Below, in pieces: positions 47,979 through 51,967 of a stretch of 64,000 nt of DNA. The DNA comes from an uncultured Opitutaceae bacterium. GTDB taxonomy: Bacteria > Verrucomicrobiota > Verrucomicrobiia > Opitutales > Opitutaceae. How positions within the stretch are numbered: the stretch's first letter is position 1; the number at the start of each line of letters is the position of its first letter. Location of the stretch: positions 1 to 64,000 of the forward strand of contig CALFNN010000070.1 in the NCBI GenBank assembly GCA_937902925.1, in the 5' to 3' direction. Made by a program: the position numbers and the translations under genes. A model generated the notes under the pieces. The model saw only the letters and a list, made by a program, of their open reading frames with translations. It was not told where the DNA came from and did no database searches.

Positions 47979-48371
47979 TCAGTCGAACCACTCGTCGTTC
48001 GGGTCGAACGCGGGCACCGGGATGTTCACGATCTTCAGCTTCCCGACTGCGCGGTGGCGGCAGCCGGGTTTGATGAAGATCGCCGTCATCGGTTTCACCG
48101 GGTGCATCTCCCCGTCGAGTTCCATGAAGCCCTCGCCCTCGAGGATCAGATAAATCTCCGTCAGCTTCTTGTGATAGTGCGTCTGCGCGTCCGTCTGGAT
48201 GTCGACCAGGTGGATCGTCGCGACCGGATTGTCGGGCGACACGAACGCCCGGCGCGAGAAACCGCACGGGCACTTCGCCGCCGGCACCGCGTCGAGCTGC
48301 GTGACGGTGAAATTCTTCTTCGCCCCGGTCGGGCGGGCGGCGGGAGCGACGGAGGCGGTGGAATGACTCAT
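47979..48371 (-). CDS. Cupin-domain protein
   Basis: A 130-residue protein with one cupin barrel. The first motif is THYHKKLTEIYLILEGEGF (His, His, Glu metal ligands) and the second is around FIKPGCRHRAVG (His). An N-terminal PCGFSRRAF segment is unusual for the fold. Small cupins bind metal and act as isomerases, dioxygenases or sugar sensors; no specific role can be deduced. Start at 48371 (MSHSTAS); an upstream extension to 48548 is Arg-rich shadow sequence. Confidence 0.85.
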   Translation of the reverse strand: MSHSTASVAPAARPTGAKKNFTVTQLDAVPAAKCPCGFSRRAFVSPDNPVATIHLVDIQTDAQTHYHKKLTEIYLILEGEGFMELDGEMHPVKPMTAIFIKPGCRHRAVGKLKIVNIPVPAFDPNDEWFD

Positions 48372-48447: not shown

Positions 48448-50103
48448 TCACGCCGGCCCGGCTTCGGCCTCGGGTTTTTTCCGCGAACGTCCCCCGCCGC
48501 GGCGCGACGGCTTTTTCTCGCCGCCATCGTTCCCGGCGGCATCGCCACCCTTGTCCGCGAACTTCGACGCCTTGGCGTTGAGCCACAATTCGTCCTTCGC
48601 GTTCTTGTTGAGCCAGAAAATCTCGCCGGCGTGCTCCACGAAAACCGGTTTCTCGCGCGATTTCTCCGGCACCTTCAGCCCGGCGCCCGTGAGCGTCGCA
48701 ATCAGGTCGTCCGGCGCCTTGCCGATTTCGCCCGCGAGCCGGTCGACCTTGCCGGCGACTCCGCCGGTCCGGGTCGGCTGCATCAGCAGGCGCAACGCCG
48801 CCAGCGGTGAGCCGGAGGCGGCAGGCGCGACGGCCGGATCGACCGCCGGTGTTTCGACTGGCGCGGGTGTCGGGCTCGCGGCTGAAGCGCTTTCCGCCCC
48901 GCCCTCGGCTGCCGCCGTCGCCGAGGCCACGGTCTCGCCGGCTTTCTTTTCGCGGCCGTTGATCCAGACGCCGCCGCGCGAATCCTGGTTGAGCCACCAT
49001 AGATCGTTGCCGATCTCGACGAACACCGGCTTGTCGTTCGGGTTGGCGGACAGCGTGAGCCCGAGCCCGGCAAACGCCGCCATCAAATCCGCCTCGGTGC
49101 AGCGCAGCGCGCGTGACAGGAAACTCGTGCTGCCCGAGCCGCCGGGACCGCGACGGTTGCGGCGCATCTGCGGGCGGATCCGGTCGAGCAACGCCGGACC
49201 CGCCGGCAACGACTGGCCGGGGACCGCCGGCGCCCCGGCCTCGGCCGCCCGTTCGCGCTCGGGGTGGCGCGGCCGCGCCTCGGCCGCGGGCTTCGCTTCC
49301 GCCGGTTCGTCCGCCATCGGCGCCGCCGACTCGACGGGCTTCGGCTCCTCGGCGGGCGTTTCCACGCGCTGGCCTTTCACCGCCCGGAACACCGGCCGCG
49401 GTTTCTCCTTCGTGTTGATCCAGAGTTCGCCGCGCCGGTTGATATTCAGCCAGTAGAGGTCGCCCTCGAATTCGAGATACTCGGGCTTCGAGTCCTCGTC
49501 CGCCGGCAGCACGAAACCGCACTCGAGCAGCGCGCCCTTGAGGTCCTCGTCGGACTGGTCCCATTTCTTCGCAAGATATTCCACGCCGACCGACATCCCC
49601 GGCCCGCGTTGATTGCGGCGCAGGTGCGGCTTGATCGCGTCGAAGAACGACGGGAGCTCGTCCATCTCCGCGGCGGTGAGCTTGTCCCACTCGTCCTTCG
49701 GCTCGTCGTCGGTCTCGGGTTCGTCGTCGTGCGAGGTGTCGACGGGCTTCCGGAAGCCGTCGTCCGGCGCGACCTTTTCCTCGAGAAAGCCGGCGGACTT
49801 TTCCTCGGCCACCGCCCCGGCGCCACCGCCCGCCGCGGCACCCTTGAATTTCGCCTCGAACTCCGCCCGCAGCTTTTCCGCCTCCGCCTTGGCCGCGGCG
49901 GCCGCGGCGTCCTGCAGCGTCCAGTCGCGCTGCGTCGAGCGGCGGGCGAGCCCGGTGAACGAGAGGAAGTTTTCCGGCTGGGTCTGAAAGTGGACGATCT
50001 CCCACTCGTCGCGGCCGAGATCGTTCAGAAATTTCTCCAGCAACGCGGGCGTGGCGAAGCCGCCCTTGCCGCTGGTGATGACCTTGTATTCCCAGAGTGA
50101 CAT
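48448..50103 (-). CDS. Three-repeat protein with DUF4177-like N-terminus, function unknown
   Basis: A 551-residue cytoplasmic protein. Residues 1-45 (WEYKVITSGKGGF, NDLGRDEWEIVHFQ) resemble the small DUF4177 domain. An Ala/Glu helix follows. Three repeats of about 82 residues lie at 150-232, 303-384 and 432-512. Each has a basic start (for example LRRNQRGPG, MRRNRRGPG), a helical middle, a line ending P.Y/VF.E...LYW/LWW/IFWLN and a closing ELWIN or ELWLN. Acidic and Pro/Ala linkers separate them, and a Lys/Arg-rich tail (SRRGGGRSRKK) closes the protein. I know no name for this repeat. A nucleic-acid-binding role is possible from the basic tail. Confidence 0.8.
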   Translation of the reverse strand: MSLWEYKVITSGKGGFATPALLEKFLNDLGRDEWEIVHFQTQPENFLSFTGLARRSTQRDWTLQDAAAAAAKAEAEKLRAEFEAKFKGAAAGGGAGAVAEEKSAGFLEEKVAPDDGFRKPVDTSHDDEPETDDEPKDEWDKLTAAEMDELPSFFDAIKPHLRRNQRGPGMSVGVEYLAKKWDQSDEDLKGALLECGFVLPADEDSKPEYLEFEGDLYWLNINRRGELWINTKEKPRPVFRAVKGQRVETPAEEPKPVESAAPMADEPAEAKPAAEARPRHPERERAAEAGAPAVPGQSLPAGPALLDRIRPQMRRNRRGPGGSGSTSFLSRALRCTEADLMAAFAGLGLTLSANPNDKPVFVEIGNDLWWLNQDSRGGVWINGREKKAGETVASATAAAEGGAESASAASPTPAPVETPAVDPAVAPAASGSPLAALRLLMQPTRTGGVAGKVDRLAGEIGKAPDDLIATLTGAGLKVPEKSREKPVFVEHAGEIFWLNKNAKDELWLNAKASKFADKGGDAAGNDGGEKKPSRRGGGRSRKKPEAEAGPA

Positions 50104-50257
50104 AAAGATATATTTGGGGCGCGAAACCCCACCCATCCCAAAAGCCCGTGCCGTTGCCGAGCATAATCGCGCCACCGGAGTCCGCGGGGGTCGCCCAAAC
50201 AGATGACCCGCCCGCCGCTTGCGCTGCGCCCGGCACCTTCTCATCGTGATAATTACT
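50104..50257. promoter_or_regulatory. Divergent region between three-repeat and dehydrogenase genes
   Basis: These 154 bp lie between two outward-facing starts and should hold both promoters. An AT-rich patch near 50245-50257 (gtgataattactatg) precedes the dehydrogenase ATG. No clear -35/-10 pair was identified. Confidence 0.35.
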
Positions 50258-51967
50258 ATGCGCCACCCGTTCCCCCTGGCCTCCCTCGCTGTGCTCTGTC
50301 TGCTCGTCGCGCCGCTGCACGCGGCCCTGCCCTCGCCCGACCCGGATGACGGCGGCATCTCGCTCCCGCCCGGCTTCCGCGCGCTCGTCTACGCCGACAA
50401 CCTCGTCGTCGGCAAACGCGTGGGCCGCTCCAACGAAAACCTCCGTTTCCTCGCCGTCGCGCCCAACGGCGACGTCTACGCCAAGGGCAAGTTCGGCAAG
50501 ATCTGGGCGCTGCGCGACACCAACGGCGACGGCCGGGCGGACAAGATCGAGGAGTTCGGACCCGGCGACGGCGGCACGCACATCATGTTTCACGACGGCT
50601 ATCTCTACCACTCGAGCCGCACCGCCGTTTACCGCTACAAATACATCCCCGGCGAACTCGTGCCCTCCTCGCCACTCGAGGTCGTGATCCATGATTTGCC
50701 CGCGGAAAAGGACCACGACGCGAAGGCTTTCGCGTTCGACGAGAGCGGCGGCATGATCGTCGAGGTCGGCTCGCCCTACAACGTCTACAGCAAACCCGAC
50801 CGCCAGTTCGGCGCGAAGGGGTTCAGCGACGAGGAAGTCGCCAAGTTCCAGCAGACCTACGGCGGCTTCTGGCGCTACGACCCGAACAAGCTCAACCAGA
50901 CGCAGGCCGACGGCGTGCGCTTCTCCACCGGCCACCGCCACTGCCTCGCGCTCGTGTGGAATCCCACCTCGAAGAATTTCTTCATGACGATGATGGGCCG
51001 CGACAATCTGGACATCGTCGACCCCGCCGACTACGACGCGCTCGACAACGCCGAGCGCGACGCCGAGGAATTCCACTTGCTCAAGCCCGGCACGAACATC
51101 GGCTGGCCCTACAGCTATTGGGACCCGATCAAGCACGCGCGGATGCGCACGCCCGAATACGGCGGCGACGGCCGCAAGCGCGAGGACAACCCCGCGTTCG
51201 ACAAGCCGCTGATCGCCTTCCCCGCCCACTGGGCGCCGCTGCAGATGTGCCTCTACGACGGCACGCAGTTTCCCGAAAAATACCACGGCGGCATGTTCCT
51301 CGCGTTTCACGGCTCGTGGAACCGCGCCCCGCGTCCGCAGGCCGGCTACAAGGTCGTCTTCATTCCGTTCGACAAGGACGGCATGCCGATCGGCAAGACC
51401 GCGACCGGCGAGGGCACCTACGAGGAGTTCGCGACCGGCTTCCCCGGCGTCGACTACTTCACCAACACCCGCGACGCCAAATACCGCCCCGCTGGCGTCG
51501 CCGTCGGCCCCGACGGCTCGCTCTACATCAGCGAAACCGAAAAGGGCCGCATCTGGCGCGTGATCTACACGGGCGACATGACGCCGCGCGCCGGCGTCCG
51601 GGCGACGGTCGCCACCGCCCAAACCTACGCCGCCATCGGCGCCGACACCCCTGGCGGAAAAATCTACGCGGCCGTCTGCGCCGCGTGCCACATGCCCAAC
51701 GGCAGCGGCGTCCCCTCGATGCAGCCCGCGCTCGCTGGCAGCGCCGTGGTCGCCGGCGACACCGCCCGCCTGATCGACGTCCTCCTCAAGGGCCCCGCCG
51801 CCGTGCTCCCGGCCGACCGCGAGAAATTCAACAACGTCATGCCGCCATTCGGCGCGGTCTACAACGACGCCGACCTTGCCAGCGTGATCAACTACCTCCG
51901 CAAAAATTTCGCCCCCGCCGCCGCCGAGGTCACCGCCGCGCAAGTCGCCGCCCAACGCGCGCAGTAG
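50258..51967 (+). CDS. Sorbosone-dehydrogenase-like (PQQ-type) propeller fused to cytochrome c
   Basis: A 569-residue secreted protein. The signal peptide ends in LHAA. A six-bladed propeller of the glucose/sorbosone dehydrogenase family covers about residues 25-440 (FLAVAPNGDVYAKGKFGKIW, HIMFHDGYLYHSS, RFSTGHRHCLALVWNP, FHGSWNRAPRPQAGYKV, YRPAGVAVGPDGSLYISE). The C-terminal 100 residues are a cytochrome c domain with heme motif CAACH. Such enzymes oxidise sugars in the periplasm and pass electrons to the heme; PQQ use is by family. No PQQ synthesis genes are in the window. Confidence 0.85.
   Translation: MRHPFPLASLAVLCLLVAPLHAALPSPDPDDGGISLPPGFRALVYADNLVVGKRVGRSNENLRFLAVAPNGDVYAKGKFGKIWALRDTNGDGRADKIEEFGPGDGGTHIMFHDGYLYHSSRTAVYRYKYIPGELVPSSPLEVVIHDLPAEKDHDAKAFAFDESGGMIVEVGSPYNVYSKPDRQFGAKGFSDEEVAKFQQTYGGFWRYDPNKLNQTQADGVRFSTGHRHCLALVWNPTSKNFFMTMMGRDNLDIVDPADYDALDNAERDAEEFHLLKPGTNIGWPYSYWDPIKHARMRTPEYGGDGRKREDNPAFDKPLIAFPAHWAPLQMCLYDGTQFPEKYHGGMFLAFHGSWNRAPRPQAGYKVVFIPFDKDGMPIGKTATGEGTYEEFATGFPGVDYFTNTRDAKYRPAGVAVGPDGSLYISETEKGRIWRVIYTGDMTPRAGVRATVATAQTYAAIGADTPGGKIYAAVCAACHMPNGSGVPSMQPALAGSAVVAGDTARLIDVLLKGPAAVLPADREKFNNVMPPFGAVYNDADLASVINYLRKNFAPAAAEVTAAQVAAQRAQ

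Follow-up and report, generated by a model that had tools for sequence, protein, structure and literature searches.

What kind of protein does the three-repeat gene of this Opitutaceae contig encode, and what might it do? The gene lies at positions 48448-50103 (minus strand) of the window, the 64,000-nucleotide stretch of DNA analysed here. A preliminary description had called its product undescribed and its repeated unit impossible to relate to a named domain. By sequence, the unit indeed relates to none; by fold it does, as a predicted winged helix. Thus, a likely fold can now be given to a protein family without a name in the libraries searched, and a conserved element upstream of the gene gives its possible function a testable form.

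Gene and distribution

The open reading frame runs on the minus strand from an ATG at 50103 down to a stop codon at 48448-48450, and its product has 551 amino acids. The whole gene is supported by the reading frame itself and by relatives: it is present in all 40 regions taken from them, which were picked by their hits. An alternative longer in-frame start is present at 50358; the methionine just ahead of WEYK occupies a position common to 39 of 40 relatives.

Nothing in Pfam or NCBIfam exceeded the curated cut-offs, and only weak or sub-cut-off matches appeared, so that within the searches made the protein stays undescribed. Empty PADLOC and PHROGs searches (E up to 1) rule against a defence or phage family. 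A PDB sequence search with the whole protein returned no match at E up to 10, and one with a profile of the unit gave a best E of 0.18, which is chance-like, with IF2 (1nd9) at E 1.2. A literature search of titles and abstract openings found no publication on the protein or its unit.

The protein search recovered the gene in 48 of 61 Opitutaceae genomes and in none of 34 genomes from other families of the order (95 genomes searched overall). Across the phylum, the unit profile matched 30 of 387 genomes, every one Opitutaceae, and seven further members of the family gave no match in that search. The class-wide search with the unit profile (E up to 0.1) returned 23 family genomes with a best E of 5e-23 or better, and 12 genomes from outside the family at E 0.005 to 0.1 only, with mostly partial matches. 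Scanning named genomes gave 184 loci, the best 80 of which were taken into the analysis; the titles of these 80 name Opitutaceae, Opitutae, Opitutia, Opitutus, Cephaloticoccus, Didemnitutus, Oleiharenicola or just Verrucomicrobia. A plasmid search gave no match for the protein. Judged by these sequence searches, the protein appears so far to be known solely from one Verrucomicrobia family, Opitutaceae, where it occurs in most sampled genomes; it was not found in the rest of the phylum sampled.

Three diverged units

The presence of three diverged units of about 80 residues in one protein was confirmed by alignment against shuffles, by profile search and in relatives. Local alignment scores were 172 for units 1 and 2, 113 for units 1 and 3, and 114 for units 2 and 3; in 1000 shuffles of each pair the highest scores were 41, 45 and 54, respectively. 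A unit profile, whose training set includes the window's own three units, places the predicted winged helices on the minus strand at residues 151-230 (49414-49653; E 9.6e-38), 303-382 (48958-49197; E 3.2e-36) and 431-509 (48577-48813; E 9e-32). Unit 1 is additionally supported by modelling, conservation and the unit tree, unit 2 by the unit model and fold matches, and unit 3 by the full-length model and fold matches.

All three units are present in 40 of 41 proteins, the window's own among them, and in 76 of the best 80 of 184 named loci; the remaining four loci carry two units and were excluded from the unit tree and from the charge and conservation analysis. In a tree of 231 units (77 per position), the positions form three perfect groups with support of 0.93-1.00. 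Mean identity is 0.74, 0.61 and 0.61 within the groups, unit 1 being the most conserved, and 0.30-0.37 between them. Because the positions form separate clades, the triplication predates the divergence of the sampled sequences, and the copies evolve without homogenisation. Across the 77 proteins, unit lengths are nearly constant (76-80 residues) and linkers are variable (18-150 for linker 3).

Several particulars of the preliminary description needed adjustment. The basic entry RRNxRGPG is found in units 1 and 2, but unit 3 has QPTRTG-GV, and the finish given as WLN...ELWIN actually reads WLNINRRGELWIN, WLNQDSRGGVWIN and WLNKNAKDELWLN in the individual units. Linkers said to be acidic are strongly so only in the first case (residues 96-150, 49654-49818, minus strand; pLDDT mostly low), where the net charge is -14 here and at the median of 77 proteins; for linkers 2 and 3 it is 0 and -3 here, with medians of 0 and -4. 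The C-terminal tail (residues 510-551, 48451-48576, minus strand; low pLDDT) is Lys/Arg-rich as proposed, and is also short and variable, with a net charge of +5 here and -5 to +11 in the 77 proteins. The DUF4177-like start can be aligned, although its score is under the Pfam cut-off (19.8 bits versus 25; 23.7 in the six-frame search).

This N-terminal domain (residues 1-58, 49930-50103, minus strand) is predicted as beta-alpha-beta-beta, with ACT-like fold matches at Z 5.0 or less. The alignment and the full-length model then place a predicted long Ala-rich helix, with low to medium confidence, at residues 63-90 (49834-49917, minus strand). Directly after unit 1 lies a conserved stretch (residues 231-240, 49384-49413, minus strand) in which the columns of residues 231, 233-235, 239 and 240 are invariant or near-invariant in the alignment of relatives.

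Predicted fold

An AlphaFold2 model of the unit, built from 66 unit sequences (pLDDT 94.2), has the element order H-E-H-H-E-E-E, which is the winged-helix topology. In a full-length model built from 45 orthologues and nothing else, the same elements recur three times, preceded by a beta-alpha-beta-beta domain at the N-terminus and then a long helix, and the predicted order H1-S1-H2-H3-S2-wing-S3 is present in both models. In all three units the mean pLDDT of ten-residue blocks is at least 90, and most linker blocks fall below 60; with an overall pTM of 0.34, the full-length model does not fix the relative placement of domains.

The 50 matches listed by VIA-align for the unit were mostly winged helices, as judged from titles and recall, and the best solved structures among them were mostly MarR, ArsR, Z-alpha and ScpB winged helices with Z at most 6.2. 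The leading rows were SlyA-DNA (top, with Z 6.2 over 61 residues at 2.4 A), ZAP, AntR, Mb0332, Z-alpha and AbfR, at Z 5.7-6.2 over about 60 residues, levels that according to the tool can reflect merely a common arrangement; we did not count ZAP as a clear winged helix. With the full model, VIA-align placed AbfR, Z-alpha and HlyU winged helices on unit 3 (residues 430-512); unit 2 was matched by an ESCRT-II winged helix and unit 1 by MerB. Foldseek alone gave no significant match for the unit (best E 0.37) or for the full model (best E 0.075, Pur-alpha).

Profile comparison with MarR aligned 67 columns at P 0.008 and beat all 10 column shuffles, with an hhalign probability of 5%. IF2_N also beat all 10 shuffles, over 34 columns (P 0.005; hhalign probability 7%), the S1 control gave P 0.4, and OST-HTH/LOTUS (PF12872), with a profile from just 6 sequences, gave P 0.15, inside the shuffle range. 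The Pfam search at E up to 10 did not list MarR (PF01047) and gave no ArsR match. The order of elements, the make-up of the match list and the weak profile match to MarR point the same way; we therefore take the unit as very likely a winged helix, no single score being decisive.

A conserved upstream element

When 81 upstream regions (the best 80 of 184 loci and the window) were aligned, a single strongly conserved block stood out. This 37-bp cis-element (50131-50167, minus strand) was delineated by alignment and by pattern and matrix scans, and has the core CTCGGCAA-N11-TTTGGGATG at 50134-50161. The exact core occurs once in the window's 6-Mb genome, upstream of the gene, and the reversed-pattern control gives 0 matches in that genome; in 90 genomes it occurs 11 times, and all 11 matches lie just upstream of the gene. 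A relaxed core matches 54 of the best 80 of 184 loci. It is always 28 nt long, with internal spacing identical in 54 of 54 matches although gaps of 4-20 were allowed, and it starts at a variable distance, 48-66 nt, before the ATG. The 1.17 Mb of sequence from the 80 loci holds no further copy. An element matrix, trained on such sites themselves, scores above 12 at 72 of the 81 expected sites (best 80 of 184 loci and the window) and at one other, weak, position among about 2.46 million.

Allowing up to two mismatches gave 124 matches in the 90 genomes, 28 just upstream of the gene and 96 away from it, versus 35 away for the reversed-pattern control. Outside the family, where the gene was not found, the excess is at least as large (43 versus 11 in 32 genomes, compared with 53 versus 24 in 58 family genomes), and we therefore read it as word composition. 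At the level of sequence, there is still room for the element to control a small regulon besides its own gene.

The standard element is absent from 24 of the 121 upstream regions compared, which come from overlapping sets. Of the 24 proteins concerned, 13 group in one 16-member clade of the protein tree with weak support (0.26), and the presence label changes 9 times along that tree, where 200 shuffles average 22 changes. By eye, several of the regions without the standard form carry a variant (GGCTGGCG...GGATG-like) nearer the start codon, as at L047, L061, L065, L069, L136, L144 and others. L078 and L110, likewise inspected by eye, have the element in the same frame as the gene's ATG; several other loci differ. 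A short coding sequence is disfavoured despite codon-like degeneracy, given in-frame stops: in 64 sequences, TAG directly precedes the core in 9, a stop stands there or inside the core in 10, and codon 11 is a stop in 15. Between the element and the start codon lies a terminator-like hairpin (50115-50131, minus strand), one of 2 such sites versus 2.4 expected, and GC-rich inverted repeats are visible by eye at the matching place in relatives such as L072, L074, L079 and L085.

No conserved operon was seen in the 81 regions (best 80 of 184 loci and the window), many of which end at contig ends; recurrent neighbours vary in distance. A gene that we take to be alpha/beta-hydrolase-like recurs in 42 of these 81 regions. 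The downstream same-strand gene (47979-48371, minus strand), presumably cupin-like, is present in 14 of the 81, including the window. The divergent gene at 50219-51967 (plus strand), which we assume from its appearance to be a sugar dehydrogenase with a C-terminal cytochrome c motif, starts near the element and is present in 5 of the 81, again including the window, where the element could in principle serve both this gene and the three-unit gene.

Possible function

A winged helix combined with a single-copy, gene-bound element is an established autoregulator pattern, and its presence here suggests an autoregulator. Three predicted winged helices and the gene's own conserved upstream element together point to a probable nucleic-acid-binding regulator, which may regulate itself. 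In its full form, as a lineage-specific, multivalent and oligomeric regulator that recognises the 37-bp element before its own gene and in this way adjusts its level, we give this preferred reading slightly less than an even chance. Three ancient, diverged winged-helix modules would hang on disordered linkers, and the N-terminal DUF4177-like (ACT-like) domain and the long helix would probably oligomerise the protein. The units would bind nucleic acid, DNA or RNA binding being compatible with the predicted fold, through the RRNxRG loop between helix 1 and strand 1 and through the basic wing, not through helix 3. The connection between element and protein is one of genomic linkage, and because the element is single-copy, gene-bound and fixed in spacing, the regulatory hypothesis is directly testable. 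A bolder version, which we hold to be somewhat unlikely, is a new class of family-specific triple winged-helix autoregulators, in which the three diverged units would contact the two half-sites CTCGGCAA and TTTGGGATG, whose starts are 19 bp or about two turns apart, via loop and wing, with DUF4177 as oligomeriser or ligand sensor.

The third helix of a winged helix is usually the DNA-recognition helix, and is typically though not universally basic. The units lack the basic recognition helix typical of winged-helix DNA readers: their helix 3 is hydrophobic, with an acidic start and hardly any conserved basic residue. Helix 2 and the wing carry conserved basic residues instead, as do the last part of helix 1 and the H1-S1 loop, which has RRNxRG in units 1 and 2; the wing is flanked by conserved WLN and W-I/L-N strands. 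Net charges are -5, +3 and +1 for units 1 to 3, and -14 for the whole protein. The non-basic helix 3 and the acidic protein argue for caution on the autoregulator reading, and a helix 3 without basic residues makes a protein-binding scaffold a serious rival, if on balance an unlikely one. The winged helices would then be protein-protein modules on a flexible scaffold, as in ScpB and ESCRT-II, which are among the fold matches, and the element would be another regulator's site. The acidic first linker and the strongly conserved Trp-rich hairpin agree with a scaffold; the conserved basic loop and wing of units 1 and 2 do not, and neither does the single-copy exact element, which makes a regulator with several targets less likely.

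We consider it quite improbable that the protein instead binds RNA, acting on mRNA or ribosome assembly in a SelB-like manner, with the element as a linear site in the mRNA leader. Genes that we take to encode an RluB-like pseudouridine synthase and a YhbY-like protein would suit such a role: they occur in 48 and 35 of 81 regions, respectively (best 80 of 184 loci and the window), on the opposite strand 0.8-8 kb upstream of the gene (L072-L151; median about 2 kb). They are not universal, however, and gene clustering found neither in the window's 9-kb flank. A Shine-Dalgarno-like word is absent from 72 of the 81 starts (best 80 of 184 loci and the window), which also favours an RNA role. YjzH, a DUF4177 protein of Bacillus subtilis, is entered among RNA-bound proteins in an OOPS proteomics table, in a source whose authors liken it to SpeG (PMC12456014). 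This one table entry constitutes the lead from DUF4177 to RNA, and the DUF4177 match here is itself sub-threshold; a second source notes that regulators of the CRP and WhiB types are syntenic with a DUF4177 gene in Streptomyces (PMC13118837). The element does not look like folded RNA: 64 aligned copies gave no covariation, and their top 15 mutual-information column pairs pair standardly in just 17-50% of sequences. RNAalifold found no structure for the 64 elements nor for any of 100 shuffled controls, and this test thus says little. Near the gene, Rfam gave no match over the gathering score, and the window's leader does not fold better than shuffled sequences do (z -0.49).

The element could also be the promoter of a dedicated sigma factor rather than the protein's own site, since fixed internal spacing combined with a variable distance to the start codon (-48 to -66 at 54 loci) is promoter-like. 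With the exact element having no second copy in the genome, we give this a similarly low probability; a sigma-70-like promoter scan found none, but it expected just 0.1 sites and covers sigma-70 alone.

It is very improbable that the winged-helix look of the unit is a prediction artefact and the domain in truth IF2_N-like or helical in some other way, for although IF2_N (PF04760; 12.1 bits for the whole protein, under the 25.3 cut-off) is the commonest weak Pfam match of the units (14 of 66; best E 0.0023) and DUF3606 matches 5 of 66 (best E 0.00052), IF2_N spans the middle helices only, and two models built in different ways both predict the strand hairpin at high confidence.

Comparison with known systems

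MarR/ArsR-type proteins (SlyA, HlyU, MepR, AbfR) share the predicted order of helices and strands with the unit over about 60 residues at roughly 2.3-3.1 A, and MarR additionally gives a colinear yet weak profile match. The protein described here differs in having no Pfam match to them, three copies per chain, and a basic loop before strand 1 in place of a basic helix 3. Z-alpha contacts Z-DNA through helix-3 positions, and the Trp of its last strand has a role in that domain. The unit resembles it in fold (Z 5.7 or less) and in a last-strand Trp, whereas by eye the positions that would contact Z-DNA are hydrophobic or acidic.

SelB is a multi-winged-helix protein, and the two share several winged helices (predicted, in our case) in a single bacterial chain; the present chain has no Pfam match to a translational GTPase domain as in IF2 or SelB. 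ScpB and ESCRT-II use tandem winged helices in protein complexes. The predicted tandem arrangement is similar, but neither was matched in sequence searches (Pfam, PDB), and the present protein has long disordered linkers. The likeness to IF2_N is a weak match across the middle helices of the unit, below cut-off and leaving the hairpin uncovered, in a protein without an IF2 GTPase match.

Residues 4-40 align with positions 1-44 of the DUF4177 profile (PF13783). Here this sub-cut-off match is fused to three predicted winged helices, and the protein may thus also offer a functional handle on DUF4177.
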